Part shown: one piece after another, positions 16,599 through 50,588 of the stretch
How positions within the stretch are numbered: position 1 is the stretch's first letter
How the letters are laid out: every line of letters starts with the position of its first letter
Made by a program: the position numbers and the translations under genes
The notes under the pieces: generated by a model
Database searches by the model: none
Seen by the model: the letters and a program-made list of their open reading frames with translations, nothing else
Told to the model about the DNA's origin: nothing
DNA from: Algibacter pectinivorans
GTDB lineage: Bacteria; Bacteroidota; Bacteroidia; Flavobacteriales; Flavobacteriaceae
Assembly (NCBI RefSeq): GCF_900112595.1
Contig: NZ_FOMI01000003.1
Location: 124,001 to 188,000, forward strand
Direction: 5' to 3'
DNA: 64,000 bases

Positions 16599-19500
16599 AT
16601 GATTAAAAGCGAAGTAAAAACAACGTGTTCTTATTGTGGTGTTGGTTGCGGGATTATTGTTAAGAAAGACAGCAATAACAAGGTGTTTGTTGAGGGCGAT
16701 AAAGATCACCCGGTAAACAAAGGCATGTTATGTTCTAAAGGGATGAATTTACATTATGTTGCTAATGATACGTCCGATAGAATTTTGTATCCCGAAATGC
16801 GATGGAGTCGTTCGCACCCAAGAGAGCGTGTAAGTTGGGATGATGCGTTAGATAGAGCTGCCAACGTTTTTAAATCGATTATAAAAAAGCATGGTCCAGA
16901 TAGCGTAGGTTTTTATGTCTCGGGTCAGAGTTTAACAGAAGAATATTATATAGCAAATAAACTTACAAAGGGATTTATAGGTACCAATAACATAGATACA
17001 AACTCACGTTTATGTATGAGTTCGGCAGTGGTTGGTTACAAAAAAACATTTGGAGAAGATAGTGTTCCAATTTCTTATGAAGATATAGAATTAGCGGATA
17101 CATTTTTAATTACCGGAGCAAATCCTGCTTGGTGTCATCCTATTTTATTTAGAAGGATAGAAAAGCGTAAAGAGGATAATCCGGAGGTTAAAATTATTGT
17201 AATAGATCCCCGAAAAACGGATACGGCTAGTTTTGCCGATTTACATTTACAATTACTTCCTGGAACAGATATTATTTTATACAATGCCATTGGAAGATGT
17301 TTGTATAAGCGTGGTTTAATTGATGAAGATTTTATAAAAAATTATACACAAGGATTTGAATCTTACAAGGAATTAATTTTTAAAACCTCTTTAAAACAAG
17401 CCTCAAAATTATGTGGGGTTGAAGAAAAAGATATAAGAAAGGCAGCAGATATTATAGGGCTATCCAAAGGTTTTATAAGTATGTGGGCCATGGGACTTAA
17501 TCAAAGTGTGGTGGGTACCGATAAAAATGTGTCATTACTTAACTTGTCGTTAATTACCGGGCAAATTGGAAAACCTGGGTCCGGACCTTTTTCGTTAACC
17601 GGACAGCCTAATGCTATGGGCGGACGCGAGGTAGGAGGTATGGCTAATTTATTGGCGGTTCATAAAGATTTACTAAATCCAGAACACCGTCGTGAAGTTG
17701 CCGAGTTTTGGGGCGTCGATAAAATTAATCCTAAACCTGGATTAACGGCTACCGAAATGTTCGATGCCTTGGAAAGCGGAAAATTAAAAGCCGTGTGGAT
17801 TGCATGTACGAATCCTTTAGTGAGTCTTCCTAACTTAAATAGAGTAGAAAAAGCCATGAAAAACGCTAAGTTTGTTGTGGTTCAAGAAATATCTCATAAA
17901 TCGGATACCGTAGGTTTTGCCGATTTAGTTTTACCCGCTGCGGCTTGGTTGGAAAAGGAAGGTACTATGACTAATTCTGAGCGTCGTATTTCCTATCTAC
18001 CAAAAGAAATAGAAGCACCAGGTGAAGCACGACCAGACGTCGAAATATTTTGTGATTTTGCACAACGCATGGGCTTTAGAGGTTTCAATTTTAATAATGC
18101 TAGCGAAATTTACGATGAATATGCGTCGATGACCAAAGGCACAAATATTGATGTGTCTTTTTTAAATTACGATCGTTTAAAGAGTGAAGGTACATTTCAG
18201 TGGCCAGTTCCAGAACATAGGCATCAAGGCACTCCAAGACTTTTTGAAGATAAAATATTCTATACACCAAGTAAAAAAGCACAGTTTAATTTACCAAGTG
18301 TAACCGAAAATACATCGGTATTACCAAACAGCGATTTCCCGTTAATATTAACCACAGGGCGTGTTCGAGACCAATGGCACACCATGACCAAAACAGGTAA
18401 GGTATCGCGTTTAAAAACACATTATCCAACGCCTGTTTTAGAAATAAATCCGGTAGATGCTTTTTTAAATAAAATTAAAAACAGGGATATTACCGAAATT
18501 AAAAGCGAAAATGGTGTTGTACGGGTACGCGCAAAGGTAACCGATACTATAAAAAAAGGTGTGGTGTTTTTACCAATGCACTGGGGTAAGCAGTTGCAAA
18601 GTAATTTAAACCGAGCCAATAATTTAACCAACACCCATGTAGATCCTGTTTCAAAAGAACCAGATTTTAAATTTACTCGTGTATCGGTTGCTAAATATAA
18701 AAAAGCAGCAGAAAAAATTATTGTTGTTGGTGCCGGTGCTGCTGCCTTTAGGTTTGTACAAAATTATAGAGAGTACAACGAAATTGATGAAATTCATGTG
18801 TTTTCAAAAGAGCCGAATTTATTCTACAATAGAGTCTTGCTACCGGAGTATGTTACCGAAGAATTATCATGGGAGCAATTATTAAAAATTAAACAAAAAG
18901 AGCTTAAAAAGCTTAACATTGTGCTACATCCCGAGATTTTTATAACACAAATAGATAAAAAAGCAAAGCGGGTTACGGATTGTAATAATGTCGAGCATGA
19001 TTATAATAAATTAATCTTAGCTACAGGTAGTCGCGCTTTTGTACCTAAAGATGTGCAAATTGATTTGCCGGGGCGTTTTACCATGCGAAATAAAACAGAT
19101 GCCGATAGTTTTAAAGCCCATTTAGAGGCTACAGGTTTACCGCCAGAGGAACAGCATGTAGTTATTGTTGGTGGTGGTTTATTAGGCTTAGAGCTCGCTG
19201 CTGCCATGAAACATAAAAACGCTAAAATTACCATAATTCAGCGTGGTTCGCGTTTAATGGAGCGTCAATTAGATAAGGTGTCTAGTAAATTACTTGCGTT
19301 GGATGTGCAAGAACGAGGTATTCAAATTTATTTTGATAATGAAGTTAGTACGGTTTTTGACGATGAGGATACAGGGGAATTAAACATCACTTTAAAAAGT
19401 GGAAAGTTTATTACTGCAAACGCCATTGTGTATGCCATAGGAACCATTCCAAATGTAGAAATTGCAAGAACTAATGGTATTGCATGCCGTAGAGGGGTTA

Positions 19501-20120
19501 TTGTAAATCAGCATTTACAGTCATCCGACCCCGATATTTTTGCCATAGGTGAAATAGCCGAATATAATAATCAGTTATTTGGTATAACTTCGGCGGCAGA
19601 AGAACAAGCCAATATATTGGCTAACTTTATTGCAGGAGATATTAGTTGTTCTTATCACGGGTCGGTGTTAATGAACATCTTAAAATTTAACGACTTAAAC
19701 CTTTGCAGTATTGGCGATATTAATGTGCCAGATAACGATAATAGCTACGAAGAAATTATTTTCACAGATATTAAAAAGCGTTATTACAAAAAGTGTATTG
19801 TAAAAGACGATTTATTAATTGGTGCGGTTTTAATGGGTGATAAAAATGAATTCGCCGAATTTAAAACCATGATTGAAAGTAAAATTGAAATGGCCGATAA
19901 ACGCGATACGTTACTTAGAGGGGCATCAAATGATGTACCGGTAATAGGGGAGTTAGTGTGTTCGTGTAGTCAGGTTGGTTCAGGTAACATTCAAGATGCG
20001 ATAGCTTCTGGATGCACAGATTTTACAGAGCTGTGTAATAAAACGGGAGCAGGATTAGGCTGCGGTAGTTGTAAAACCCAAGTTAGAGAAATACTTCAAA
20101 ATTCTAAAGTTTTAGCATAA
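16599..20120 (+). CDS. Assimilatory nitrate reductase fused to a FAD/BFD electron-entry module
   Basis: 1173 residues, far longer than plain NasA/NarB (about 700-900). The N-terminus has the Fe4S4 motif CSYCGVGC...CSKG, followed by a bis-MGD molybdopterin domain to about residue 700 (CTNPLVSLPN, SERRISYLP, TTGRVRDQWHTMT). From about residue 707 comes a second enzyme module: a Rossmann fold (VVGAGAAAFRF), an NAD(P)-binding fold (VIVGGGLLGLELAAA) and a C-terminal BFD [2Fe-2S] domain (CSCSQ...CGSCKTQ). This module is the same type as the N-terminal half of NirB and of NasC/NasB proteins, so reductant oxidation and nitrate reduction seem joined in one chain. Its stop overlaps the start of the 20120 gene by 1 nt. 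Confidence 0.92.
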   Translation: MIKSEVKTTCSYCGVGCGIIVKKDSNNKVFVEGDKDHPVNKGMLCSKGMNLHYVANDTSDRILYPEMRWSRSHPRERVSWDDALDRAANVFKSIIKKHGPDSVGFYVSGQSLTEEYYIANKLTKGFIGTNNIDTNSRLCMSSAVVGYKKTFGEDSVPISYEDIELADTFLITGANPAWCHPILFRRIEKRKEDNPEVKIIVIDPRKTDTASFADLHLQLLPGTDIILYNAIGRCLYKRGLIDEDFIKNYTQGFESYKELIFKTSLKQASKLCGVEEKDIRKAADIIGLSKGFISMWAMGLNQSVVGTDKNVSLLNLSLITGQIGKPGSGPFSLTGQPNAMGGREVGGMANLLAVHKDLLNPEHRREVAEFWGVDKINPKPGLTATEMFDALESGKLKAVWIACTNPLVSLPNLNRVEKAMKNAKFVVVQEISHKSDTVGFADLVLPAAAWLEKEGTMTNSERRISYLPKEIEAPGEARPDVEIFCDFAQRMGFRGFNFNNASEIYDEYASMTKGTNIDVSFLNYDRLKSEGTFQWPVPEHRHQGTPRLFEDKIFYTPSKKAQFNLPSVTENTSVLPNSDFPLILTTGRVRDQWHTMTKTGKVSRLKTHYPTPVLEINPVDAFLNKIKNRDITEIKSENGVVRVRAKVTDTIKKGVVFLPMHWGKQLQSNLNRANNLTNTHVDPVSKEPDFKFTRVSVAKYKKAAEKIIVVGAGAAAFRFVQNYREYNEIDEIHVFSKEPNLFYNRVLLPEYVTEELSWEQLLKIKQKELKKLNIVLHPEIFITQIDKKAKRVTDCNNVEHDYNKLILATGSRAFVPKDVQIDLPGRFTMRNKTDADSFKAHLEATGLPPEEQHVVIVGGGLLGLELAAAMKHKNAKITIIQRGSRLMERQLDKVSSKLLALDVQERGIQIYFDNEVSTVFDDEDTGELNITLKSGKFITANAIVYAIGTIPNVEIARTNGIACRRGVIVNQHLQSSDPDIFAIGEIAEYNNQLFGITSAAEEQANILANFIAGDISCSYHGSVLMNILKFNDLNLCSIGDINVPDNDNSYEEIIFTDIKKRYYKKCIVKDDLLIGAVLMGDKNEFAEFKTMIESKIEMADKRDTLLRGASNDVPVIGELVCSCSQVGSGNIQDAIASGCTDFTELCNKTGAGLGCGSCKTQVREILQNSKVLA

Positions 20121-21550
20121 TGACAGAACCATATAGATTAATGATAAACGGAGGAGTTTTATCTCCAGGCGAGTTAAAATACATTTGTGAGGCTGCAGAA
20201 GGTTTAGGTTTAGATGCTATATCCTTTGGGTCTAGACAAGATATTATTTTTCCAGAAGAAATAGACGAAAGTAAGTTTAGCCAATTTAAAAAAATTCAGT
20301 TTGTAAAACCAAAACAAGATGGAATAGAGAATATAGCATCATCATACGTTTCTGCCGAAATTTTACCAAGTACTTCATGGTTAACAAGTGATAGGTATTT
20401 ATATGTTTTAGAGCAATTTAAACATCCTCCAAAGCTGCGTATTAATGTTATAGATCCAAAACAAAAACTTGTACCACTGTTTACAGGTAATGTGAATTTT
20501 ATAGCTTCAGGTCATGAAGATTATTGGTATTTATTTGTAAGGTTACCGGGTTGGAAAGAAACCAAAATGTACCCTGCGCTTATTTATAGTTGGGATATGG
20601 ATAAAATTGAATATGCCATTGAAAATATACTTATTGAAGAACCCGAAACTATCGAAACAGTGTTCGATTTAGTAAGTGATGCCGTTGATACCAATAATAG
20701 AACAGTGGATAAGCCACTAGAAGTACCATTTTACCCATTCCCGTATTACGAGGGCATGAATAGAATTGGGTCCGATAGGTATTGGTTAGGCTTATATTGG
20801 AGAAACAATCGTTACGACCTTAAGTTTTTAAAAGCTATGTGCGATTTGTGTTCCGAAAATAAAATTGGTAAAATATCCATTACCCCCTGGAAATCTTTTA
20901 TTGTTAAAGGAATACCACTACAGTCTAAACTAAAATGGGAAAAATTGCTAGGTAAGTTTGGTATTAATGTACGCCATTCTATGTTAGAGATGAATTGGCA
21001 TTTGCCAGTAAACGACGAAAGTGCTCTAAATTTAAAAAAGTATTTGGTAAATAACTTCGATCAAAACGACATTAGTACCTACGGTTTAACCTTTGGAATA
21101 ACAAGTTTTGATAGTGATACGTACAACTTTACATCTATAGTTATAGAAAAAAACAGGCAACCTCAAACTATCAAAGATTTTAAAGTTAGAGACACCTATA
21201 ATTTGCTGTATGCTAAAAATTTCGACACGAACACACGCGAATACATCACACATGTTCAAGATGTAGATAAGGTTGAGTTACCGGGTTTGCTAATGGAGTT
21301 AAGTCAGTTATATTTCGAGCAATTAGGATCAGAGCGAGAGGAAGAGGATCAAACTTTAGAAATCCAAGAAACTACAGAAGAGGAAGTACATCAATGCTCA
21401 GATTGTTTTACAATTTACGACGAGGCCTATGGCGATCTTACCCAAAACATACCTGCCAAAACACCTTTTGATAGTTTACCAAATGCCTACCAATGTTCGC
21501 TTTGCGAAGCACCTAAAAGTAATTTTAGGAAAATTGTTTTAGTTAAGTAA
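20120..21550 (+). CDS. Rubredoxin-tailed protein with a nitrite/sulfite-reductase-like half domain
   Basis: 476 residues, translationally coupled to the nitrate reductase (TAATG overlap). The N-terminal region (PGELKYICEAAEGLGLDAISFG) looks like the ferredoxin-like half domain of nitrite/sulfite reductases. The C-x5-C/C-x3-C set needed for sirohaem-Fe4S4 is absent, so it is unlikely to be a nitrite reductase. Residues about 430-476 form a rubredoxin domain with two CxxC knuckles (CSDC and CSLC). The likely role is electron transfer to, or assembly with, the upstream fused nitrate reductase. I infer this from coupling; I know no characterised homologue. Confidence 0.75.
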   Translation: MTEPYRLMINGGVLSPGELKYICEAAEGLGLDAISFGSRQDIIFPEEIDESKFSQFKKIQFVKPKQDGIENIASSYVSAEILPSTSWLTSDRYLYVLEQFKHPPKLRINVIDPKQKLVPLFTGNVNFIASGHEDYWYLFVRLPGWKETKMYPALIYSWDMDKIEYAIENILIEEPETIETVFDLVSDAVDTNNRTVDKPLEVPFYPFPYYEGMNRIGSDRYWLGLYWRNNRYDLKFLKAMCDLCSENKIGKISITPWKSFIVKGIPLQSKLKWEKLLGKFGINVRHSMLEMNWHLPVNDESALNLKKYLVNNFDQNDISTYGLTFGITSFDSDTYNFTSIVIEKNRQPQTIKDFKVRDTYNLLYAKNFDTNTREYITHVQDVDKVELPGLLMELSQLYFEQLGSEREEEDQTLEIQETTEEEVHQCSDCFTIYDEAYGDLTQNIPAKTPFDSLPNAYQCSLCEAPKSNFRKIVLVK

Positions 21551-21564
21551 AAGTATATGAAATC

Positions 21565-21653
21565 CATTCGTCGACACTTAAAAGGTATTCATCGACACTT
21601 AATTTGGAATAAACGAACTCTATTCTTGTTACTTTACATTTATATTACTTTTA
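21565..21653 (+). promoter_or_regulatory. Triple direct repeat and -7 box before the NO-signalling operon
   Basis: Three repeats of 16 nt with period 21: 21565-21580 (CATTCGTCGACACTTA), 21586-21601 (14/16 the same) and a weaker third at 21607-21622. A gap of 23 nt leads to the -7-like TACTTTTA (21646-21653). The arrangement is typical of LytTR regulators, and the operon ends with a LytTR gene, so autoregulation is likely. Five more sites with the same geometry lie downstream in the window. Confidence 0.65.
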
Positions 21654-21675: not shown

Positions 21676-22089
21676 ATGGACAAGACATTAAACATTCTAC
21701 TAATCGAGGACGACATGATTGAAATTATGAAGTTCAACAGAACAATTTCGCAACTTCAACTTAATCATAAAGTTATTGAGGCTAATAATGGTGAGGATGC
21801 TTTAAAAATTTTACATAAAAAAGATGAATTACCTGACATTATTTTGCTAGATTTGAATATGCCTAAAATCAATGGTATTGAATTTTTAGGTATCCTTAAA
21901 AATGATGATGTATTAAAATATATACCTACTATTATTTTAACCACTTCAAGTAATCAAAAAGATTTGCTAGAATGTTATAAGATAGGTATTGCTGGCTATG
22001 TATTAAAACCTTTAAAATATGAAGATTACGTTTCTAAAATGGAAAAGTTATTATCATATTGGAGTATTAACGAATTAAAGCAAATTTAA
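21676..22089 (+). CDS. Single-domain (CheY/Spo0F-like) response regulator
   Basis: 137 residues, receiver domain only. Acidic E11-D12-D13, phospho-acceptor D59 (LLDLNMP), TTSS for the switch Thr/Ser, and K in VLKPL. It has no output domain. It is the first gene of a tight operon with overlapping or near-overlapping neighbours (1-nt overlap with the H-NOX gene). Because neither kinase in the operon carries a receiver while an Hpt and a LytTR regulator are present, this protein could be the intermediate carrier in a HK to receiver to Hpt to regulator relay. Confidence 0.9.
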   Translation: MDKTLNILLIEDDMIEIMKFNRTISQLQLNHKVIEANNGEDALKILHKKDELPDIILLDLNMPKINGIEFLGILKNDDVLKYIPTIILTTSSNQKDLLECYKIGIAGYVLKPLKYEDYVSKMEKLLSYWSINELKQI

Positions 22090-22628
22090 TGAAGGGTATA
22101 GTTTTTACTGAGTTTTTAGAATTAGTAGAGGATAAATTTGGATTAGAAATGGTGGATAATATCATTAGTTCATCTAATCTAGAGTCTGGTGGTGTATATA
22201 CTGCAGTTGGTACATATAATTTTTCAGAAATGTTACAATTACTGCAACAATTAAGTACTAATACAGGGATTTCTATTGATGATCTTTTACTCGTTTATGC
22301 AGAGCATTTCTTTAGTGTACTAAAGGATAGCTATCCTGGGCTTTTAGAAACTTACAAAGATCCTATTGAAATGATTTCGTCCATTGAAAATCATATACAT
22401 GTAGAGGTAAGAAAAATTTATCCAGATGCCGAACTTCCAACTTTTGAAGTTGTAGAAAAATCGGAAAACTCGTTAATAGTAATTTATAGATCTAGCAGAG
22501 CAATGCATCATTTTGGTTTAGGATTAATGAACAAAACATTCGAACATTTTAATTCAACGGCTAACATTGTTCTAGAAAAATTAAAAGAAGACGGAACAGA
22601 GGTTAAGTTTTTAATTAATAAAAATTAA
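22089..22628 (+). CDS. hnoX: H-NOX haem nitric-oxide sensor
   Basis: 179 residues, the standard length of a stand-alone bacterial H-NOX (HNOB domain). It begins MKGIVFTEFLELVEDKFG and has GGVYTAVGTY, the proximal haem histidine in ENHIHVEV (H104 by alignment) and the haem-propionate motif YxSxR (Y133-S135-R137). The distal position equivalent to Tyr140 of the Thermoanaerobacter protein aligns with F142, so the haem should bind NO and exclude O2. In other bacteria such proteins inhibit or control a neighbouring kinase in response to nanomolar NO. Start and stop overlap both neighbours by 1 nt, and a PAS kinase follows immediately. Confidence 0.95.
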   Translation: MKGIVFTEFLELVEDKFGLEMVDNIISSSNLESGGVYTAVGTYNFSEMLQLLQQLSTNTGISIDDLLLVYAEHFFSVLKDSYPGLLETYKDPIEMISSIENHIHVEVRKIYPDAELPTFEVVEKSENSLIVIYRSSRAMHHFGLGLMNKTFEHFNSTANIVLEKLKEDGTEVKFLINKN

Positions 22629-24217
22629 TGAGTCAAGACAAAATTGACATGCTCCAGCGGGCACTTGCTCGCGAAAAACTAGCTAGAAAACAAGCAGAAA
22701 AAATTCTAGAAAATAAGGCTGCCGAATTATATGAGGCTAAGCAAAAGCTTGAAAAATCGTATGCCGAGTTAGAAACCTTACTTAATAAAACAGACTCCCA
22801 ATTACAAGGTGTTTTCGAAAACATTGTAGACGCCTATGTTATTATAGATTTACACGGTAACATACTTAAAGTTAATGATGCCGCAGTAAGTTTGTTAGGA
22901 CTAAACGACTCTAACGAAGATTTTAATCTTCTTAATATGGTTAAGCCAACCGAAATGGAGCGTGTAGCACAATCTTTTAAAATGCTACTAAATACAGGGT
23001 CTATTACAGATTTTAGTGTTACCATACTTACCGATAAAAAGGTGGAAAAACTAGTACATATTAATGCTAGTATTATTTATGACGATGGTATACCCGTTGC
23101 CGCCCAAGGTATTGTTCGAGACATAACATTACAACGAAAATATCGAAAAAGTTTAGAAACAGAAAAGCTTAAATACTACAATATAATTTCTAACATGAAC
23201 TTAGGTTTGGTGGAGGTCGATCTTAATGACCGCATCATTATGGTAAACCAAAGTTTGTTGAATATGACAGGTTATACCGAAGAAGAACTTGTTGGAAAAC
23301 ATGGTGTTAACCTTTTGCCTGTAGATGATGATAGAGATTTATTAGAAGAAAAAATAAATGAAAGAAGGCATGGTAAAACCGAATCCTACGAATTAAGAAT
23401 TAAAAAGAAGGATGGAGAAGTACGGTATTGGCTTGTTAGTGGTGCGCCTAACTATGATTTAGATGGCAATATTACTGGTTCAATAGGTATTAATTTTGAT
23501 ATTACAGAGTTAAAAAATTTACAACTTCAAAAGGAAAATTTACTCGATAAATTAGCTAAAAGTAATGACGATTTACAAGAGTATGCACACATTGTTTCCC
23601 ACGATTTAAAGTCGCCATTACGTAGTATAAATGCTTTGGTAACTTGGATTAAACAAGATAACGAGGGTAAACTAGATGCTGTAACTATGCAGAATTTACA
23701 TCTTATTGATGTTACTTTAGAAAAAATGGAACAACTAATAACAGATGTTTTAAATTATTCTAGCGTTGGTACAAACGAAAACGAAAAAGTAGATGTAGAT
23801 TTAGATGTGCTTATTACAGATCTGGTTAAAATCATGTATAAACCAGACCATATAAAAATAAGTTTTTTAAATATATTACCTGTGGTAAAAGGCGATAAAA
23901 CCAAGCTGCAACAGGTGTTTCAAAATATAATTAGTAATTCCATAAAGTTTATTGATAAAGATTTTGGAACTATTGATATAGATGTCGAAGATTTAAAAAG
24001 TCATTATAAATTTTCTATTAAGGATAACGGCATGGGTATTGAAAAAAAATACCACGATAAAATATTTAAAATATTCCATTCCTTAAAGAAAAGTAAAGAG
24101 TCCTCGGGAATAGGGCTATCTATAGTTAAAAAAATAATCAATTTACATGAAGGTAAAATCTGGTTAGATAGCGAGCCAAACGTAGGAACCACTTTTTATT
24201 TCACATTAAAAAAATAG
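22628..24217 (+). CDS. H-NOX-associated PAS histidine kinase
   Basis: 529 residues, cytosolic with no transmembrane segment. The N-terminal coiled coil (about 5-55; ALAREKLARKQAEKILE) is typical of kinases paired with H-NOX or NosP. Two PAS domains follow (about 58-175 and 182-300), then HisKA with H in HIVSHDLKSPL and an HATPase with NIISNSIKF, DNGMG and GIGLSIVKK. There is no attached receiver, so phosphate must go to a separate protein. Its start overlaps the H-NOX stop, which supports a direct sensor-kinase pair. Confidence 0.92.
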   Translation: MSQDKIDMLQRALAREKLARKQAEKILENKAAELYEAKQKLEKSYAELETLLNKTDSQLQGVFENIVDAYVIIDLHGNILKVNDAAVSLLGLNDSNEDFNLLNMVKPTEMERVAQSFKMLLNTGSITDFSVTILTDKKVEKLVHINASIIYDDGIPVAAQGIVRDITLQRKYRKSLETEKLKYYNIISNMNLGLVEVDLNDRIIMVNQSLLNMTGYTEEELVGKHGVNLLPVDDDRDLLEEKINERRHGKTESYELRIKKKDGEVRYWLVSGAPNYDLDGNITGSIGINFDITELKNLQLQKENLLDKLAKSNDDLQEYAHIVSHDLKSPLRSINALVTWIKQDNEGKLDAVTMQNLHLIDVTLEKMEQLITDVLNYSSVGTNENEKVDVDLDVLITDLVKIMYKPDHIKISFLNILPVVKGDKTKLQQVFQNIISNSIKFIDKDFGTIDIDVEDLKSHYKFSIKDNGMGIEKKYHDKIFKIFHSLKKSKESSGIGLSIVKKIINLHEGKIWLDSEPNVGTTFYFTLKK

Positions 24218-24220
24218 GTA

Positions 24221-25354
24221 ATGAAAACAGTACAATTAATAAAACATAAAAATAAAGATTGGGAATACGTTAAACCAAAACAAGAATTAAACGAACCTTT
24301 AGTTTTAGTTTTTGGTAATAGATATATGCTAGAAGATGCTAATGTTTATAATGATATTAAGCAGCTTTTTCCAGACGGACATATTGTTTTTGCATCTTCT
24401 TGTGCAGAAATCTCCTCTAATACAGTAAATCAAGAAAGTATTACTATAACGGCAATCGAGTTCGAAAAAAGTAAATTTATTATTAAAACAAGTAATGTTT
24501 TAAATGCAGATTTAGACAGTTATAAAACAGGAAACGATCTAGTAAACCAACTCCCTCAAGACGATTTAAAGTATGTTTTAGTAATATCAGAAGGTAGTTT
24601 TATTAATGGAAGTCAGCTTACTAAAGGATTAAGTGCCTCTACCAAAGACAATGTTTTAATAACAGGTGGCTTATGTGGCGATGATGATCGTTTCGAAAAA
24701 ACCTTAGCATCCTATAACGAAAACCCAAAAGAAGGAGAATTAGTCGCTATTGGTTTTTATGGCGATACCCTAGAGATTTCGTTTTCTATTCATGGCGGAT
24801 GGACCCCTTTTGGACCAGAACGTGTAGTAACAAAGTCTGAAGGAAACACCTTATATGAGTTAGACGGCCAACCGGCATTAGATTTATATAAGAGTTACTT
24901 AGGCGAAAAGGCTAAAGATTTACCTGGAGCAGCATTACTATACCCATTAAATGTAACATCTACAGACGAAAACCAATCTATTGTAAGGTCTATTTTAAAT
25001 ATAGATGAAGCGCAAAATGCGGTAATTTTAGCTGGCGATATTATAGAAAATTCTAAGGTTCAGCTCATGATGACTAATGTAGATAATATTGCAAACGCAT
25101 CAGAACGTGCAGCAACACAGGCACTAGAATACAGAAAAAATAAACCAGAATTAGCGTTATTAGTAAGTTGTATTGGCAGAAAATTAGTGTTAGACCAACG
25201 TGTTGAAGAGGAAATAGAAGAAGTTATTGAAGTTATAGGTAACGACGCCGTAATTAGTGGTTTTTATTCCTACGGAGAAATTGCACCTTTTCATGGTGAA
25301 GTAGCGTGCCAATTGCATAACCAAACCATGACTATAACGCTAATAAGCGAATAA
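24221..25354 (+). CDS. nosP: FIST-domain protein, NosP-type NO sensor
   Basis: 377 residues. FIST_N (about 25-220; FASSCAEISS, GGLCGDDDRF, VAIGFYG) is followed by FIST_C (about 225-370; SCIGRKLVLDQ, SGFYSYGEIAP, HNQTMTITLISE). FIST proteins called NosP bind haem and NO and regulate an adjacent histidine kinase in Pseudomonas, Shewanella, Vibrio and Legionella. The haem ligand cannot be identified with confidence from sequence. It lies 3 nt after one kinase and overlaps the next by 1 nt. A second NO sensor in the same operon as H-NOX is the unusual point. Confidence 0.88.
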   Translation: MKTVQLIKHKNKDWEYVKPKQELNEPLVLVFGNRYMLEDANVYNDIKQLFPDGHIVFASSCAEISSNTVNQESITITAIEFEKSKFIIKTSNVLNADLDSYKTGNDLVNQLPQDDLKYVLVISEGSFINGSQLTKGLSASTKDNVLITGGLCGDDDRFEKTLASYNENPKEGELVAIGFYGDTLEISFSIHGGWTPFGPERVVTKSEGNTLYELDGQPALDLYKSYLGEKAKDLPGAALLYPLNVTSTDENQSIVRSILNIDEAQNAVILAGDIIENSKVQLMMTNVDNIANASERAATQALEYRKNKPELALLVSCIGRKLVLDQRVEEEIEEVIEVIGNDAVISGFYSYGEIAPFHGEVACQLHNQTMTITLISE

Positions 25355-26400
25355 TGAATTCACTCCTAAAAAGACAAATTCGTAAATATTTAACTGAAGA
25401 ATTAAGAAACAATAGTGAATTAACAACATTTCTTAGTGCTGTAGATTCCTCGTACAATAATTTTGACGAACAGTCTAAAATGATTCAGCGCGCCATGGCC
25501 ATTAGCTCCGAAGAATTATTTACTGCAAACCGAAAATTACAAAAGGAAGCCGATGAGCAAAAGGAGGTTATCGAAAAATTAAAAGGTGTCATAGATACGC
25601 TAAAATTTTATAATTTAAAAGAAGAGGAACAGGCTGAAGATATAGAATTAACGGGGGCCAATTTGGTCGATTTTATTGATAATAAAACTAAAGCTATTAT
25701 CACGATGAATAAGCAAAGGCAATCTATCCTTAACGAGCTTGCACATCAAAATCAGGAACTTAGCGATTATGCCCATATGGTCTCGCACGATTTAAAATCG
25801 CCATTACGTAGTATAGATACCTTAACAGCTTGGTTAGCTCAAGATTATCAGGAAACCTTTGACGATAGCGGAAAAAAAACATTAAATTTAATACGAACCA
25901 ATGTTGAGAAAATGGATACCTTAATCAGTGGTATTTTAGAGTATTCAACAATCGGTAAAAATCAGTTAGAGGTTTACGACGTCGATTTAAATATTATAAT
26001 TGATGATATTTTAAATAGTGTTGAAGTACCAGAGCACATTACTATTAAAAAAAGCAACTTACCAACTGTAAAAGGGGATAAATACAGGTTGCAGCAACTG
26101 TTTCAAAACCTAATAGGTAACGCTATAAAATATAACGATAAAGCAAAAGGAGTTATAGAAATTGGTGTTGAGGATTGTAATACATACTGGCAGTTTTATA
26201 TAAAAGATAACGGAAAAGGTATTGAGGAAACGTATTTTGATAAAATATTTAAAACCTTCGAAAAATTAGAGAATACACCTGGATCGTCGGGTATTGGATT
26301 ATCAATTGTAAAAAAGATTGTAGAACTTTATAACGGTAAAATTTGGGTTGAATCTAAAATTACCGAAGGTTCAACATTCTTTTTTACCATAAAAAAATAA
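25354..26400 (+). CDS. NosP-associated histidine kinase
   Basis: 348 residues, soluble. The N-terminal helical/coiled-coil region (about 1-125; LLKRQIRKYL, then SSEELFTANRKLQKEADEQ) is of the type found in NosP-linked kinases. HisKA has HMVSHDLKSPLRS and HATPase has NLIGNAIKY, DNGKG and GIGLSIVKK. No PAS, receiver or membrane segment. Its kinase core is close to that of the 22628 kinase, consistent with an ancient duplication in which each copy serves one sensor. Coupled by 1-nt overlap to the FIST gene. Confidence 0.9.
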   Translation: MNSLLKRQIRKYLTEELRNNSELTTFLSAVDSSYNNFDEQSKMIQRAMAISSEELFTANRKLQKEADEQKEVIEKLKGVIDTLKFYNLKEEEQAEDIELTGANLVDFIDNKTKAIITMNKQRQSILNELAHQNQELSDYAHMVSHDLKSPLRSIDTLTAWLAQDYQETFDDSGKKTLNLIRTNVEKMDTLISGILEYSTIGKNQLEVYDVDLNIIIDDILNSVEVPEHITIKKSNLPTVKGDKYRLQQLFQNLIGNAIKYNDKAKGVIEIGVEDCNTYWQFYIKDNGKGIEETYFDKIFKTFEKLENTPGSSGIGLSIVKKIVELYNGKIWVESKITEGSTFFFTIKK

Positions 26401-26402
26401 CT

Positions 26403-26720
26403 ATGGAACAACCTAATTTATCATACATAAATCAACTATCGGGTAATGATAAAGCCTTTAAAGATAAGCTTATAGGTGTTGTTAAACGCGAGTTTCCAGA
26501 GGAGAAAGCAATCTATGTAAAAAATATATCGGCAAACAATTATAAAGAAGCTGCCGAAAATGTACACAAACTTAAACATAAAATTAGTATTTTAGGACTT
26601 GAAAAAAGTTATGCTGTAGCCGATGATTATGAAAATAATCTATTAGAGCAAAATACGTCGGGAAAAGCAGAGTTCGACGCCATTTTGCAGGCTATTACAG
26701 ACTACTTAACTACTATTTAA
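26403..26720 (+). CDS. Hpt histidine-phosphotransfer protein
   Basis: 105 residues, all helical. The Hpt motif is HKLKHKISILG with the phospho-acceptor predicted at H55. Free-standing Hpt proteins move phosphate between receivers. Located 2 nt after the NosP kinase and 9 nt before the LytTR regulator, it is the natural link between the single receiver (21676) and the LytTR receiver (26730). Confidence 0.85.
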   Translation: MEQPNLSYINQLSGNDKAFKDKLIGVVKREFPEEKAIYVKNISANNYKEAAENVHKLKHKISILGLEKSYAVADDYENNLLEQNTSGKAEFDAILQAITDYLTTI

Positions 26721-26729
26721 TATTATTTT

Positions 26730-27446
26730 ATGAATTGTATTATTATTGACGATGAGGCCATGGCTAGAACAATTATTACTCAGCTATGTACTCATATTCC
26801 TAGTTTAAATCTACTTGAAGAGTTTCCTAATGCAATGCAAGCCATAAAATATTTAAATCAAAATGAGGTCGATCTTATATTTTTAGATATTCATATGCCA
26901 GATTTTACTGGTTTTGATTTTATTCAAACCCTAAAAAATCCGCCTAAAATAATATTAACAACCTCAGATCCCAAATTTGCAATCGAAGCTTTCGAGTACG
27001 AATGTATTGTAGATTATCTGGTAAAACCTTTGTTATTGCCACGTTTTGAGAAAGCTATACAAAAAGCCGAAGCATTTGGGATAAAGCGAAAACCGGCTAA
27101 AAAAGTAACTGTAGAAAAAAAAGAATCGAGCTCAGGAAACGATTTATATGTTAATATAGATAGACGCCTAATTAAAATAGATATACCAAGTATTTATTTG
27201 GTGGAGGCTAAAGGTGATTATATACAAGTTAAAACTGAAGATAAAAATTACACCGTACACTCCACATTAAAAAAGATTGCAGACAAATTACCAAACGATT
27301 TATTTTTAAAAGTACACCGCTCTTATATAATAAATGTGCAGAAAATTATAGATATCGAGGACAATAGTGTGCTTATTAAAAAGGACGTTATTCCTGTAAG
27401 TCGCTCCAACCGACCGGAGTTAATGAAGCGTCTTAATTTGCTGTAA
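26730..27446 (+). CDS. LytTR-family response regulator, output of the NO relay
   Basis: 238 residues. The receiver domain has D7-D8, phospho-acceptor D53 (FLDIHMP) and VKPL; the C-terminal LytTR DNA-binding domain starts near residue 135 (NIDRRLIKIDIPSIYLVEAKGDYIQV, cut here to IYLVEAKGDYIQV as key part, then FLKVHRSYIIN). LytTR proteins bind direct repeats about two helical turns apart. Six repeat pairs or triplets of that kind lie in this window (before 21676, 27639, 28248, 35941, 37617 and 44820). Last gene of the operon, followed by a strong terminator at 27487-27514. Confidence 0.93.
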   Translation: MNCIIIDDEAMARTIITQLCTHIPSLNLLEEFPNAMQAIKYLNQNEVDLIFLDIHMPDFTGFDFIQTLKNPPKIILTTSDPKFAIEAFEYECIVDYLVKPLLLPRFEKAIQKAEAFGIKRKPAKKVTVEKKESSSGNDLYVNIDRRLIKIDIPSIYLVEAKGDYIQVKTEDKNYTVHSTLKKIADKLPNDLFLKVHRSYIINVQKIIDIEDNSVLIKKDVIPVSRSNRPELMKRLNLL

Positions 27447-27547: not shown

Positions 27548-27616
27548 CATTCGTCTACACATGAAAATGGGCTAATCGAAAATTAAAAAATACAAAGACC
27601 TTTCAAGTTAATTTTG
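27548..27616 (+). promoter_or_regulatory. LytTR-type repeat pair and -7 box before the CAP protein
   Basis: Repeat 1 CATTCGTCTACACATG (27548-27563) and repeat 2 GGCTAATCGAAAATTA (27570-27585), period 22. A 23-nt gap leads to an exact -7 box TAATTTTG (27609-27616). There is no TTG at -33; repeat 2 sits where it would be, as expected for an activator-dependent promoter. Confidence 0.65.
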
Positions 27617-27638: not shown

Positions 27639-28136
27639 ATGAAAAAATTATCCTTTGTATTTGTCATCATAGTATTAAATATTTCATTTCAATCCTGCTC
27701 TGTTAAAGACGATGCCGAAATATTAGAACCATATAATTCTACCCATATTCAATTGGAATATTCTCAAATGGATTATGAGATAGCCGAAATTATTAACAAT
27801 TACAGAGCTTCAAGAAGTTTGTCTAAACTTAATATTCTTGTTGAAGCCTCAAAAGAAGCTTATTTACATAATTTATATATGGTTGAAAAAGGCGAAGCTA
27901 GTCATGATTACTTTTTTGAAAGATTAGAAAACCTAAAGAAAAATGTAAATGCTAAAAGTGTTTCAGAAAATGTTGGCTATGGCTATTCTTCAGCACAATC
28001 TGTAGTTAATGCTTGGTTAAAAAGTGAAAATCATAGAAAAAATATTGAAACCCCAGAATTTACAGATCTAGGAATTTCATCTACAGAAGATGGTAATGGA
28101 AGGCGCTATTTTACAAACATTTTTGTAAAACGCTAA
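27639..28136 (+). CDS. Secreted CAP/SCP-domain lipoprotein
   Basis: 165 residues. Signal peptide with a plausible lipobox cysteine (SFQSC, about residue 20), then a CAP domain: INNYRASRSL, the histidine-containing SHDYFFERL, and ENVGYGYSSAQSVVNAWLKSENHRKNI. Bacterial CAP-domain proteins are cell-envelope proteins of mostly unknown activity. It is a single gene directly behind a LytTR-type repeat pair, so I infer that the upstream NO relay controls it. Confidence 0.85.
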   Translation: MKKLSFVFVIIVLNISFQSCSVKDDAEILEPYNSTHIQLEYSQMDYEIAEIINNYRASRSLSKLNILVEASKEAYLHNLYMVEKGEASHDYFFERLENLKKNVNAKSVSENVGYGYSSAQSVVNAWLKSENHRKNIETPEFTDLGISSTEDGNGRRYFTNIFVKR

Positions 28137-28159
28137 TTCATTTAACGGCACAAATCTAC

Positions 28160-28227
28160 CATTTACCTACACTTAATTTTCATCTAGCGAATAATTTAAA
28201 AATAAGCCCTTTAATAGAATAAGTTTG
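28160..28227 (+). promoter_or_regulatory. LytTR-type repeat pair and -7 box before the T9SS protein
   Basis: Repeat 1 CATTTACCTACACTTA (28160-28175; 13/16 to consensus), and a weaker repeat 2 at 28181-28196 (period 21) that keeps the core A..CGAA. A 23-nt gap leads to the exact -7 box TAAGTTTG (28220-28227), 20 nt before the start codon. Confidence 0.6.
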
Positions 28228-28247: not shown

Positions 28248-30839
28248 ATGAAAAAATTATTACTTCTTTCACTACTACTTATCACTAGCGTATACAACGC
28301 CCAAAGTGCACCTTTTAATTGCGACTATAGTGCTTACCTATTTCAGTATAATGATGTTTATGCTATCGATTTAGCATCTGGCAACTCTTACGAGGTAGCA
28401 AGCAATGTTACAGAAGGTAATATAAACGCAGCAGCTTACAATCCTGCCGATGGTTACATTTGGGGATCATTAAGTACGCCTCAAAAATCTATAGTACGTA
28501 TAGGTAAAGATTTTAAAACAACCACTTTTTATATTGATGAGTTACCAACTAATGGCCGCTATGTAGGCGATGTTAGTAGTAACGGTGTGTATTACCTAAA
28601 AGGAGGCGGAACAACGTATTACGCTATTGATGTAAATCCAGAATCTGAGAATTACACAAAATATATAGCAACAAAAACGCTAGCTAAAAACATTAGTATT
28701 CATGACTGGGCTTTTAATGCCGTAGATGGTAAATTATATGCCTTAGAAAAAAACACTAATATTTTATATAGAATTGACGCCGAAACAGGAAGTGTTGAAA
28801 GTTTAGGTATTGTACCAATCCTTTCGGGTTTAAATTATACCTATGGCGCGGTTTATTTTGATGCTTCGGGACGTTTTTATGTGTCGGCTAATCAAACAGG
28901 GACTATTTACGTTATTCAAAGTGTGCAAGATTTAAATGGCTTAAATGTTATAGAATCTAACCTATTTGCCTTTGGACCATCAAGCTCTCAAAACGATGGT
29001 GCACGTTGTCCTACAGCACCAGTTCCTCAAGAAATTTGCGATAATGGTATTGATGATGATGGCGATGGGTTAATTGATTGCGAAGATCCATCGTGTTCAG
29101 GTTATTCGGGTTGTCCAGTACTAGAAATGTCTACAGCATCTAGTGCAAACGAAGGTGGGTTAGAAAGTAATAACAGATTGTCTCAACAAATTAGCAAACG
29201 TAATTTTAACAGGGCAAAAACGAGTTATAAGTTTGATAAAGCTACAGCAAAACGTTTTAAAAAGTCTAAAAATTACGGTAAAGCAAGTGCCGCTAAAAGT
29301 AACGGTTTTAACCTTTCAGATTTTATGCCTTTAGAGGTTATTAATGAGGATAGTGTTATCGAATCTTCGCCATCAGATTTAATAGGAATTACTAATGCTA
29401 CCGAAGTGTATTCAGTAGATTACATAAAAAATGACGATGCCATTGCATCTATCTTATTACTAAAAACAGATAAAGGCGTTTACGAGCATACAAAATACAT
29501 TTGCGATAGGTTGTTAGGTGCACAATTAATATCTGTTTCGACTTTAGAAATTAACGAACAACAATTTATAAAATCTTTAATAAGAAATATTGATGGTAGC
29601 TTAGAGTTTGTATTAAGTCTTTCGGCAAAATCAATTAACAACAACGCTAATTTTGCAATTGAGAGCCACTGGAATCTTGATAAATACGAAAGTAACGTTG
29701 GGTTTTATAATTTTCAAATTTGGTCTAATAATTTAGACGATTTAGTAAAACTAGGAGAAGAAGTAGTTCGTTTATTAGATGTGCAACAATCTGTAACAAG
29801 CTACAACAACTCCACACCACCAACAGTATTTGTTAGAACCGGAACGTATAAAAATGGTAAACTTAATTTACAAGTTGTAAATACAAATAGGAGTGAAGCT
29901 GTTGCTTTTGATGGCGGATTGCGAGCTACAGAAACCGAAACTGTAGAAAATGTATCGACAACAATTAATTTAACAGGCGATTATATTTCAAACATCGAAG
30001 TTGATGCAGGAAATCTTTTCGATATTGGATTTAGAATTGGCGATGGCGTAGCAACTCCAGACGATTTATTCATGTCCGATGGACCATGGGGATACGATGA
30101 TGCAGCGCCTTCAACAACGGTTACAAATTATGCGGTTAACGAAACTGAAGACACGTTTAGTAACGATGAGTATGCCATAGAACGTAGCATAAAACTAGAA
30201 GCAACAACAAGCGATTATATAGCGGCATACAGAGCATTAACGCCAAAATTTAACCCTATAGATTTAACAGCGTATAACAGCTTTAAGTTACAGGCTAACG
30301 GTACTGGAACCTTAATAATACGATTGGTAAAAGAGAGCGTAAACAACTGGCAAACGCAATATAAAACAAGTATAGCTTTAACTAACGATTTAGAAGATTA
30401 TACGTTAATGTTTTCAGATTTTGAATCTAGCAACGGAACGCCTTTTGAGGCAAACGACATAACCTCTATAGTGTTTACCATGTTAGCCGATAACGGCGAG
30501 CAAGTCACCAAAAAAATGAGTTTAAATCAATTACGTTTTGCAACAAGTAGCGCATTATCTGTCGCTTCGCAAGAGGGAACGACTGGCATAGCAACAACGG
30601 CTATACCTAACCCAATGCAAAATCAAACAACAATACACTTTACTGCAGAATACGCCGAAACCTTACAAATACAGGTTTATAATCAAGTTGGACGTTTAGT
30701 AAAAACGTTAAAAGTAGATGCTAAACAAGGTGCTAACCAAGTGACTCTGCAACGCGGAAACTTAAGTTCAGGAATGTATTTCTGCACTATTAAAAGTACC
30801 CAAGGTAATTATAATACAACAAAACTACTCATGGATTAA
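28248..30839 (+). CDS. Large T9SS-secreted surface protein
   Basis: 863 residues. A signal peptide (about 1-18) is followed by a beta-propeller-like region (about 20-255). Next comes an Asp-rich ICDNGIDDDGDGLIDC motif resembling calcium-binding MopE-type repeats (about 262-285), and a beta-rich central part. The C-terminal type A sorting domain (about 785-863) has IPNPMQNQTTIHF and LSSGMYFCTIKS. Such proteins cross the outer membrane by the type IX system and are released or attached to the surface. It sits behind a LytTR-type site and ends at a terminator, so it is a monocistronic candidate target of the NO relay. The substrate or ligand is unknown. Confidence 0.85.
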   Translation: MKKLLLLSLLLITSVYNAQSAPFNCDYSAYLFQYNDVYAIDLASGNSYEVASNVTEGNINAAAYNPADGYIWGSLSTPQKSIVRIGKDFKTTTFYIDELPTNGRYVGDVSSNGVYYLKGGGTTYYAIDVNPESENYTKYIATKTLAKNISIHDWAFNAVDGKLYALEKNTNILYRIDAETGSVESLGIVPILSGLNYTYGAVYFDASGRFYVSANQTGTIYVIQSVQDLNGLNVIESNLFAFGPSSSQNDGARCPTAPVPQEICDNGIDDDGDGLIDCEDPSCSGYSGCPVLEMSTASSANEGGLESNNRLSQQISKRNFNRAKTSYKFDKATAKRFKKSKNYGKASAAKSNGFNLSDFMPLEVINEDSVIESSPSDLIGITNATEVYSVDYIKNDDAIASILLLKTDKGVYEHTKYICDRLLGAQLISVSTLEINEQQFIKSLIRNIDGSLEFVLSLSAKSINNNANFAIESHWNLDKYESNVGFYNFQIWSNNLDDLVKLGEEVVRLLDVQQSVTSYNNSTPPTVFVRTGTYKNGKLNLQVVNTNRSEAVAFDGGLRATETETVENVSTTINLTGDYISNIEVDAGNLFDIGFRIGDGVATPDDLFMSDGPWGYDDAAPSTTVTNYAVNETEDTFSNDEYAIERSIKLEATTSDYIAAYRALTPKFNPIDLTAYNSFKLQANGTGTLIIRLVKESVNNWQTQYKTSIALTNDLEDYTLMFSDFESSNGTPFEANDITSIVFTMLADNGEQVTKKMSLNQLRFATSSALSVASQEGTTGIATTAIPNPMQNQTTIHFTAEYAETLQIQVYNQVGRLVKTLKVDAKQGANQVTLQRGNLSSGMYFCTIKSTQGNYNTTKLLMD

Positions 30840-34318: not shown

Positions 34319-34452
34319 ATTAGGTATTGTTTATATAAATGCAAGTTAATTAATAGTATGGCATTATTAACCTACAGTAAATGGTTATTCAACGACACAC
34401 AATGACCTTTGGTTGTTTTAAATAGAATGTTGTAACCTATTTTTATTTAATG

Positions 34453-35592
34453 TTATCTGTAATGCAATGCTATTTGACCTAGTTGACCAACAATTTTTAC
34501 CGAGTCTTTCATGGATAGTTTAGAGCCATCAGCATGAATCCAGCGCTTAAGCGGTTGTTCGCAAATGAAAGAGATTGCTTTTTTCTTGCCGTAATGTTTT
34601 CTCATGCGTATAAAAATTTCAACATCGAAAATCCAACGCGTTATAAATTTATCTTTAAATACCAGATTAGCTATGTCTTTGTCCATAATTTTTGCACCAC
34701 ATTGCGTATCGTTAAACGGCATACCTAATATGGTACGGATAATTAGATTTATGGTTTTACTTATTATAGCACGTGCAGATTCTTTAGCGATATTAGCACC
34801 CATTCTAGTCATTCTAGAACCGCTCACAATTTTAAAATCTGAAGTTTCAATAGTTTTTACTAAATCGTCAAAATCTCTAAAATCTGTTGATAAATCGGCA
34901 TCTAAATACCCAATATAATCTAACTGAGGGTCTTTGGCTAAATGCAAAACACCTTGCCTTACAGCCTCGCCTTTGCCACCATTTTGGGCACAATCATATA
35001 CACTAATATTATTTTCTCTACCTTTTTTTAGTGTGTTTAAAACTTCTAAGGTTTTATCAGTACTACCATCGTTTACAAAGCAGAGGTGATAGCCTAAATT
35101 ACTATCTACAAAATCATGAAACTCTTTGCTTGAGAGTCTTTCTTCTTCATTATAACAAGGAATTACAACACCTACACAGCGTTGTTGTAACATTTGGTCC
35201 TTAGTAGTTTCGTTTTGTGATTTATTGGTTTTTATACCAAAAATTCTATTTATTCTTACCGTTACTTCGTTTAGAGAAACCGGTTTTTTCATGTAATCAT
35301 CAATACCTAAATCAAAGCCATCAATAATGGTGTCTTCGTTGGTATTTCCAGAAAGCACTAAAATTTTAGTGTCCGATTTTTTCTCAAGTCTAATGGTTTT
35401 AACAACATCTAGCCCTGTCATGCCATCCATATTAATATCTACAATTACGATGTCTGGTTTAAAGGTGTCAAAAATCTTTAATCCTTCTTCGCCAGAACTG
35501 GCACATTTAATATCGAAACCTAAATCGGATAAGTGTTTTTCTAGAGATAACAATATTAATTGTTGATCGTCTATGGCTAGAATTTTAATCAT
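34453..35592 (-). CDS. Receiver domain fused to a GT2 glycosyltransferase (copy 1)
   Basis: 379 residues. Residues 1-120 form a complete receiver: D8-D9, phospho-acceptor D52 (IVDINMD), LSGN and MKKP. Residues about 135-379 form a GT2 domain of the dolichyl-phosphate-mannose-synthase/ALG5 type: VVIPCYNEEERL, FVNDGSTDKT, the metal motif DADLSTD and CGAKI. There are no transmembrane helices, so it should act on a lipid or nucleotide sugar at the membrane surface. A close paralogue is at 45217. Phosphorylation could directly gate sugar transfer. That coupling is inference; both domains are clear. Confidence 0.88.
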   Translation of the reverse strand: MIKILAIDDQQLILLSLEKHLSDLGFDIKCASSGEEGLKIFDTFKPDIVIVDINMDGMTGLDVVKTIRLEKKSDTKILVLSGNTNEDTIIDGFDLGIDDYMKKPVSLNEVTVRINRIFGIKTNKSQNETTKDQMLQQRCVGVVIPCYNEEERLSSKEFHDFVDSNLGYHLCFVNDGSTDKTLEVLNTLKKGRENNISVYDCAQNGGKGEAVRQGVLHLAKDPQLDYIGYLDADLSTDFRDFDDLVKTIETSDFKIVSGSRMTRMGANIAKESARAIISKTINLIIRTILGMPFNDTQCGAKIMDKDIANLVFKDKFITRWIFDVEIFIRMRKHYGKKKAISFICEQPLKRWIHADGSKLSMKDSVKIVGQLGQIALHYR

Positions 35593-37509: not shown

Positions 37510-37514
37510 AAGAC

Positions 37515-37582
37515 CACTCGTCTACACTAAAGTAAAGTCTATCTAAAATTACTGTATTTAGTTTAATAAAACCTCAAATTTG
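37515..37582 (+). promoter_or_regulatory. LytTR-type repeat pair and -7-like box before the GT4 gene
   Basis: Repeat 1 CACTCGTCTACACTAA (37515-37530) and repeat 2 AGTCTATCTAAAATTA (37536-37551), period 21. A 23-nt gap leads to CAAATTTG (37575-37582), one base off TAnnTTTG and 34 nt before the start codon. Confidence 0.6.
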
Positions 37583-44701: not shown

Positions 44702-44721
44702 ATTTATCTATAGCTTTTTAC

Positions 44722-50514: not shown

Positions 50515-50523
50515 TTTTTTGTG

Positions 50524-50582: not shown

Positions 50583-50588
50583 ATACGT

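Follow-up and report, generated by a model that had tools for sequence, protein, structure and literature searches.

What does a bacterium control with an operon that holds a haem-based gas sensor, a second putative sensor and all the pieces of a phosphorelay? The question is raised by a window of the flavobacterium Algibacter pectinivorans (contig NZ_FOMI01000003.1, positions 124,001 to 188,000), by which we mean the whole stretch of 64,000 nucleotides analysed and to which all coordinates below refer. Seven genes at 21676-27446 encode a free receiver, an H-NOX protein, a histidine kinase (HK1), a FIST protein, a second histidine kinase (HK2), a histidine phosphotransfer (Hpt) protein and a LytTR response regulator. 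The first-pass annotation of this DNA stopped at the LytTR gene and missed what is likely the target, a polysaccharide cluster just downstream. On balance, we regard the operon as a haem-gated phosphorelay that probably controls this adjacent exopolysaccharide regulon, a proposal drawn from the conservation of its parts, from a tandem DNA box that recurs before the operon and before genes of the cluster, and from a clade where the box has moved together with the LytTR gene.

The operon and its conservation

The seven open reading frames (ORFs) were confirmed on the forward strand, and their spacing (-1, -1, 3, -1, 2 and 9 nt) bears out the earlier description of overlaps or gaps below 10 nt. 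A single-domain receiver with acceptor D59 comes first (21676-22089; Pfam Response_reg, 78 bits), followed by the H-NOX haem gas sensor (22089-22628), whose whole-domain match to PF07700 (HNOB) reaches 134 bits against a cut-off of 25.5. HK1 (22628-24217; Pfam PAS, HisKA and HATPase_c) is a PAS-PAS kinase with its phospho-acceptor at H325. The FIST protein (24221-25354) has both of its Pfam domains, FIST_N and FIST_C (PF08495 and PF10442), above cut-off, with 150 bits for FIST and 121 bits for FIST_C, and is accompanied by HK2 (25354-26400; HisKA and HATPase_c, H145). The operon closes with the Hpt gene (26403-26720, H55) and the LytTR regulator (26730-27446; Response_reg and LytTR, D53). Neither kinase matches the Pfam receiver family, and both look soluble because neither holds a strongly hydrophobic 19-mer, as had been supposed at the outset; their cores are identical at 118 of 228 residues and have the phospho-acceptor motif HDLKSPLR in common.

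Taken alone, the Hpt protein matches Pfam Hpt weakly (19.6 bits, below the cut-off of 24.6), and 48 of 50 aligned members of its family, the window's copy counted, match this model at E <= 0.1. Its AlphaFold2 model (pLDDT 94.4) finds solved HPt domains as top matches in the PDB, with TM 0.76 and probability 1.00 for 3myf at E 0.083, and no PDB match at E <= 0.001. The predicted structure and the conserved histidine point to an HPt-fold phosphotransferase.

A survey of gene order had been proposed along with the first description of the operon. H-NOX occurs in 146 and FIST in 116 of 397 Flavobacteriaceae genomes, and both lie on the same strand within 6 kb in at least 75 genomes, a number counted over 112 listed FIST matches, mainly without the extra copies of FIST arrays and without the weakest matches. 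Around the H-NOX genes we fetched 140 regions, which correspond to 150 H-NOX matches minus our own and nine others (six lower-scoring, two partial and one of 21 bits). For the counts of architecture, one locus whose H-NOX was missed by the ORF caller (L193) was dropped and the window was added, which again makes 140 loci. The exact order receiver, H-NOX, kinase, FIST, kinase, Hpt, LytTR is present in 66 of them, the same order without the FIST-kinase pair in 48, and other or truncated forms in 26. With the same order recurring in more than 100 genomes, the arrangement is therefore not a product of chance, and the operon is confirmed as real and widely conserved. A named set of 80 loci (Algibacter, Winogradskyella, Lacinutrix, Olleya, Psychroserpens, Kordia, Polaribacter, Dokdonia and others), drawn largely from the same family and hence not independent, shows 53 exact forms with the pair and 17 without it. 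Across a sample of the phylum, H-NOX was found in 27 of 395 genomes, 15 of them Flavobacteriaceae; outside the family, one of the 12 H-NOX genomes has the full seven-gene form (L405), and the remaining loci carry hybrid kinases or no such neighbours. One locus from another family of the class (L403, genome G631) shows a shortened form of the pathway, with H-NOX, a receiver-bearing hybrid kinase and then LytTR directly.

The phospho-acceptor and haem-ligand residues are essentially invariant. D59 of the receiver is kept in 134 of 134 aligned loci, H55 of Hpt in 130 of 130 rows from the 140 loci, and D53 of the LytTR receiver in 124 of 124, so the three acceptors first named were the correct ones; among the kinases, H325 of HK1 is kept in all 78 FIST-bearing loci and H145 of HK2 in 76 of 77, the lone exception being a split ORF. 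By these residues, a single operon holds, as was claimed for it, a complete His-Asp-His-Asp set of components with intact acceptors. A seemingly deviant phospho-acceptor motif in the kinases of FIST-less loci was rejected as an artefact of the use of an outlier (L062) as reference, and 58 of 60 of these kinases carry HDLK. The H-NOX protein keeps H104, Y133 and S135 in 140 of 140 loci and R137 in 135, with K in the other five; we take Y-x-S-x-R to be the haem motif and the conserved histidine to be the haem ligand, and the original H-NOX assignment holds. At position 142 every one of the 140 loci has F, L or M, which, if the position corresponds to the distal Tyr140 of O2-binding H-NOX proteins, as we presume, would be compatible with an NO-type pocket. 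The locus L156 (G049), with a stop within its H-NOX match and a shortened FIST gene, resembles a decaying operon.

One of these sensors already has a structure. PDB entry 6bdd matches the window's H-NOX at 323 bits and is the H-NOX of Kordia algicida (PMC7356049, in part), 82% identical to the window protein; its sequence recurs letter for letter in the H-NOX of a seven-gene K. algicida operon (locus L100; OT-1 locus L350). In the entries 6bdd and 6bde this H-NOX carries the molecule name of an aldolase.

The FIST gene is the variable part of the operon. It stands behind H-NOX in 78 of the 140 loci and is absent from 62, some of which are cut by contig ends. A kinase follows it in 77 of the 78, and no architecture has a second kinase there without FIST. 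Mapped on a tree built with FastTree from the receiver, H-NOX, Hpt and LytTR of 120 loci, the presence of FIST requires a minimum of 20 changes. The FIST-HK2 pair is an optional cassette, and because the five-gene core persists without this second sensor, the "dual input" initially ascribed to the operon is an optional upgrade, a description that suits the loci with the pair and fails for those without it. An input at a new position of the operon is seen in L141 (G063), where an additional kinase is inserted between receiver and H-NOX.

A tandem box before the operon and before the polysaccharide genes

Upstream of the operon, at 21564-21603 of the forward strand, lies a LytTR-type tandem box of two CCATTCGTC-like repeats, a CCATTCGTCGACACTTAA-type direct repeat that occurs twice at a 21-bp period. 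It scores 49.1 bits with a 40-bp matrix of which it is itself one of the training rows. The box is found in front of 122 of 140 operons, in most cases 90-120 bp from the start, a count which is partly circular since the matrix was refined on operon promoters; shuffled sequences gave 1 in 700 and reversed sequences 0 in 140. Over the 140 fetched regions (1.86 Mb) there are 292 site clusters, operon promoters counted, versus one in the reversed sequence. Binding by LytTR regulators is described for imperfect direct repeats with a spacing of about 12 bp (PMC4064291 and PMC11347149, in part), and the boxes follow this rule, as pairs of direct repeats of about 9 bp, spaced by about 12 bp, upstream of candidate targets; their core matches the AlgR sequence CCGTTCGTC at 8 of 9 positions. 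No clear core-promoter element was found downstream of the box, and for this reason activation and repression cannot be told apart from the promoter geometry.

The window holds five further box clusters, six in total, all on the forward strand, all downstream of the operon and all intergenic apart from 17 bases of one; six Markov-shuffled windows and the reversed sequence gave none. The first (28138-28198, 21-bp period, 26.0 and 12.9 bits) precedes a gene for an 863-aa secreted protein with a type IX sorting tail and DUF6923 (28248-30839, forward; Pfam and NCBIfam). The second (34364-34403, 24.1 bits) is directed away from the gene of a TPR protein, possibly involved in outer-membrane export (32258-34318, reverse; Pfam TPR, and NCBIfam PgaA with 51.5 bits at a cut-off of 367). 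A third (35831-35870, 23.5 bits) stands before a STAS-domain gene (35941-36219, forward; Pfam STAS, 32 bits) and a polysaccharide flippase (36250-37509, forward; Polysacc_synt_3). The fourth (37493-37553, 21-bp period, 30.6 and 20.1 bits) overlaps the final 17 bases of the flippase ORF and precedes a family-1 glycosyltransferase (37617-38819, forward; Pfam). The last (44700-44739, 28.6 bits) lies before a single-domain receiver (44820-45191, forward; Response_reg) and a receiver fused to a family-2 glycosyltransferase (45217-46401, forward; Pfam), with acceptor D51. In addition, a single half-site with two mismatches and no matrix hit above 5 bits (27548-27563, forward) precedes a CAP-domain lipoprotein gene (27639-28136). 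With a second receiver-glycosyltransferase fusion (34453-35592, reverse; Pfam), a glycoside-hydrolase-like protein of the GH5/GH2 TIM-barrel type (38822-40339, reverse; Pfam Cellulase, 51 bits) and two genes at 40333-44639 (reverse), one of 405 aa with a weak Ig-like match below cut-off and one of 1029 aa without a family match, the region from 28 to 47 kb most likely represents, by its gene content, an exopolysaccharide cluster. The box at 34364-34403 points into the 3' end of this second fusion gene; its target may be a divergent gene that an insertion has moved away.

The boxes recur before relatives of these genes. A box is found upstream of 41 of 52 relatives of the 863-aa protein, which lie outside the training set of the matrix. 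Among the closest receiver-glycosyltransferases, the window's own counted, 28 of 30 loci have a site above 14 bits, and of the other two, one has 11 bits and one hardly any upstream sequence; the distance from the end of the site to the gene is 79-91 bp for 25 of these 29 sites and about 480-490 bp for the remaining four, as in the window. For the TPR relatives, an opposite-strand box was seen in 22 of 45, and for the CAP genes a box in 5 of 10. The protein encoded at 45217 is matched at E <= 1e-60 in 112 of 397 Flavobacteriaceae genomes, its receiver part in 86 of these (in one only partly), and 105 of the 112 also have H-NOX (Fisher p 2e-52, uncorrected for kinship). For 88 of these 105, the gene and H-NOX share a contig and are no more than 45 kb apart, and the gene is then always on the downstream side, 8-35 kb away.

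The flanks at 16599-21550 and 48418-52196 encode a fused molybdopterin oxidoreductase with NAD-reductase and BFD domains, a rubredoxin-tailed protein resembling nitrite/sulfite reductases, and molybdenum-cofactor genes. By their Pfam domains, the oxidoreductase genes at 16599-21550 are of the nitrate/nitrite-assimilation type and a plausible source of NO. The gene type at 20120 is present in 15 of 141 regions, the window counted, with regions that reach only about 4 kb upstream; no box was found before its reductase genes (0 of 13).

In one clade the box moves with the LytTR gene

Five genomes from three genera, which form one clade, have an H-NOX operon without a LytTR gene. No box above 14 bits was found in their five H-NOX regions (13.5 kb), and relatives of the TPR, flippase and family-1 glycosyltransferase genes are present in all five. 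A loss of the LytTR gene was considered and rejected in favour of relocation, as an ortholog sits elsewhere in all five genomes, 62-66% identical, with paralogs at 43% or less in the eight genomes searched. At its new site the gene follows a copy of the relay receiver, kinases and Hpt are both missing, and nearby is a gene of 838 to 879 aa related to the oxidoreductase at 16599, which we take to be a NirB-like nitrite reductase. Boxes precede the receiver-LytTR pair in five of five relocated loci, and in three of them boxes, some weak (7-20 bits), also precede flippase, family-1 glycosyltransferase or secreted-protein relatives. Box and LytTR gene have thus moved together, a natural control that corresponds to a single evolutionary event. 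These loci (L417-L421) look like a split, probably duplicated, relay: they consist of receiver and LytTR alone, and three of the five also hold boxes and extra copies of genes for the flippase, a glycosyltransferase or the secreted protein.

Over the 140 loci, LytTR gene and box are both present in 121, the gene alone in five, the box alone in three and neither in seven, with four loci too short to judge; a narrower count (113, 11, 9 and 7) had overlooked LytTR genes further away as well as boxes shifted by start-codon calls that made genes too long. At the scale of whole genomes, 13 H-NOX genomes and seven without H-NOX were hand-picked for being in one contig. The former hold 75 half-sites with at most one mismatch. 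The stretch from -5 to +40 kb around H-NOX, 1.2% of the sequence, contains 56 of them, and none of the 24 exact half-sites falls outside it. Each of the 13 has at least one match near H-NOX (3 of 6 in G335), and the seven genomes without H-NOX have six matches, none of them exact. In the A. pectinivorans genome the half-site CATTCRTCKACASTWA occurs 26 times with up to two mismatches, nine of them inside the window. Outside the window, a three-repeat LytTR-like box (G000:C10:339267-339318; L207, L225) precedes the gene of a 320-aa secreted-type protein, which follows a signal-peptide-peptidase-like gene (both named by eye), and may mark a distant member of the regulon.

Besides the partial circularity of the matrix, a series of observations weighs against a dedicated regulon of this kind. 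The 26 half-sites compare with 20 in the reversed control, and the tandem pattern at three mismatches is hardly commoner genome-wide than in the reversed sequence (57 vs 50); their clustering rather than their count is therefore informative, and clustering is seen for strong matches only. Two of the 13 genomes have a single match near H-NOX (G087, 1 of 2; G118, 1 of 3), and the eight LytTR domains encoded in the A. pectinivorans genome mean that a paralog could bind the boxes. Boxes are found upstream of only 10 of 25 family-1 glycosyltransferase genes and 6 of 33 flippases, and the one at 34364 faces away from the closest gene start. Among 126 LytTR-bearing loci with enough flanking sequence, five show no box in the 1.3 kb upstream, although in L141 one occurs at a greater distance, and the box is kept in three of ten loci without the LytTR gene. 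Because the five LytTR-less loci form a single clade, comparing independent pairs by a sign test yields no significance (median p 1). The glycosyltransferase has no receiver in 26 of the 112 genomes and is on another contig or distant in the other 17 of 105, among them K. algicida (G353), where 253 kb separate it from H-NOX.

A proposed pathway and its alternatives

In the pathway that we favour, binding of NO to the haem of H-NOX would alter the activity of HK1, and FIST, where present, would do so for HK2, the paralog of HK1, with NO or another ligand as its signal. Having no receivers of their own, both kinases would pass phosphate to D59 of the single-domain receiver, from there to H55 of Hpt and finally to D53 of LytTR. 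The phosphorylated LytTR protein would then bind the tandem CCATTCGTC boxes before its own operon and before the secreted-protein, flippase, glycosyltransferase and receiver-glycosyltransferase genes downstream. We infer the control by haem and NO, the order of phosphotransfer and the binding of the boxes by this particular LytTR protein from the sequence. The regulatory sign cannot be predicted, because the known effects differ in direction: NO-bound H-NOX inhibits HqsK, and NO-bound NosP activates NahK but, in a different species, inhibits VpsS (PMC11237717 and PMC6769237, in part). A search of the A. pectinivorans genome for GGDEF domains gave no match, so the usual cyclic di-GMP (c-di-GMP) route is absent, in agreement with the early statement that the output is not c-di-GMP.

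Whether the second sensor also reads NO is a separate matter. The FIST product had been equated with NosP, an identification that its score does not sustain: against the NCBIfam NosP model NF041558 it reaches 63.4 bits, far from the equivalog cut-off of 450. All 30 aligned FIST members match the model similarly weakly (best E 3.5e-19). A sequence search of the PDB for a solved FIST relative returned none, with three matches only at E 0.67 or worse, and the AlphaFold2 model is poor (pLDDT 59.6). The protein is probably a distant NosP relative only, to call it NosP goes too far, and at such a score dual NO sensing by H-NOX and FIST is no more than a possibility. FIST domains are general ligand-binding modules, and it is quite conceivable, if somewhat short of probable, that the operon merges two signals on one relay, with H-NOX reporting NO and FIST another ligand. 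Such an arrangement would suit the low NosP score, the plasmid-borne FIST relatives (37-39% identity) annotated as FIST with no mention of NosP, and the many gains and losses of FIST-HK2 independently of H-NOX, as expected of a separate input; on the other side, NosP is itself a FIST protein, its model is matched by every member scanned, and NosP too is encoded beside its kinase (PMC12570481, in part). Eight genomes (G069, G101, G225, G261, G302, G368, G078 and G037) each have three or four lower-scoring FIST genes, mostly in tandem on one contig; among the matches listed they have no H-NOX, except G302, where it is far away.

A second alternative, which we hold to be possible and rather unlikely, moves the main output to the protein level: the relay would phosphorylate the receivers fused to glycosyltransferases and the receiver at 44820, and LytTR would only set their expression. 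The fused receivers keep D7, D8, D51, S80 and K102 in 32 of 32 rows of closest relatives (the window's copy twice), which is why the relay may also act on them directly. Of the 80 genomes that possess both the fusion and the relay, 71 have them no more than 45 kb apart, and such a glycosyltransferase is still beside the relay in the five genomes with the LytTR gene elsewhere. Against it, these receivers could serve another kinase, the neighbouring glycosyltransferase lacks a receiver in 17 further genomes (17 of 25 such genomes have it within 45 kb), and the boxes imply that transcription is probably controlled too.

It is improbable that no relay exists, that is, that the kinases use the single receiver as a sink or as a protein-protein switch while LytTR is phosphorylated by an orphan kinase or never. 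The parts are separable, as the clade with receiver and LytTR together but without kinases and Hpt indicates, yet an Hpt with an invariant histidine stands between kinase and LytTR in most loci, and LytTR itself keeps D53 in all 124 aligned rows. Least credible of all is that the boxes belong to another LytTR paralog, one of those behind the eight LytTR domains of the genome, whose sites can resemble each other, and that the synteny merely reflects a shared polysaccharide island, since the boxes accompany the ortholog in the clade where it sits elsewhere, the paralogs in the eight genomes searched are far less similar, and the half-sites concentrate at the H-NOX locus in the single-contig genomes.

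Back with the haem-gated relay, a wider version can be put forward tentatively, and we would not count on it. In bacteria without c-di-GMP, a haem-sensor phosphorelay may replace this messenger in the link between NO and the matrix, acting on one polysaccharide machinery both through LytTR-dependent transcription of its entire gene cluster and through direct phosphorylation of glycosyltransferase receivers, with FIST-kinase as a plug-in input gained or lost some twenty times.

Relation to known systems

Among marine bacteria, flavobacteria are one of the main groups associated with particles and algae. The operon offers a concrete and testable candidate pathway from gas to matrix in marine flavobacteria, where we found no described H-NOX signalling route, and a possible NO-biofilm link that would not need c-di-GMP. 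It also places a crystallised H-NOX in its genomic context and provides a DNA box as well as a candidate regulon that is defined and has a natural control. The second sensor and its kinase form a module that can be taken off an otherwise fixed relay, which bears on how relays gain and lose inputs.

How much of this was known before? The operon was first thought to be undescribed, which needs to be narrowed: the K. algicida H-NOX has been crystallised, and FIST genes are listed among the neighbours of one H-NOX similarity group (PMC8738867, section 10), the nearest prior remark. In the available text of PMC7356049 the K. algicida protein (6bdd, 6bde) is treated in isolation, with zero occurrences of both "operon" and "kinase". 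No description of the operon or of its polysaccharide link was found by a search over titles and the openings of abstracts, which most subscription papers and the primary paper on the Kordia structure fall outside.

In the H-NOX/kinase systems of Proteobacteria (Vibrio, Legionella and others), H-NOX is encoded beside a soluble kinase, as here, and the Legionella set of hnox2, kinase and CheY-like receiver resembles the first three genes of the operon (PMC11237717, in part). The outputs described there, as far as the sections seen go, are c-di-GMP enzymes or quorum sensing, whereas here Hpt and LytTR are in the operon and a polysaccharide cluster follows downstream. In the NosP/NahK (NosK) systems a FIST protein is likewise encoded directly before its own kinase; the FIST protein of the window falls far below the cut-off of the NosP model, and the NosP systems described end in c-di-GMP-type regulators or LuxU (PMC12570481 and PMC6769237, in part). 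Among LytTR proteins, AlgR acts at alginate genes (PMC4064291 and PMC11347149, in part), its site CCGTTCGTC resembles the box core CCATTCGTC, and in both cases direct repeats are set about two helical turns apart. The gas-responsive LytTR proteins CoxC and RcoM offer a further likeness, with the difference that CoxC senses CO within the same protein and the sensing would fall here to separate haem proteins that act through a relay. Finally, in the sporulation relay Spo0 several kinases feed one chain. The comparison with Spo0 drawn at the outset holds for this logic, with receiver-less kinases, one free receiver, a phosphotransferase and a DNA-binding end regulator, and not for the parts: the phosphotransferase here probably has the HPt fold instead of that of Spo0B, a LytTR protein takes the place of Spo0A, and all the parts are gathered in one operon.

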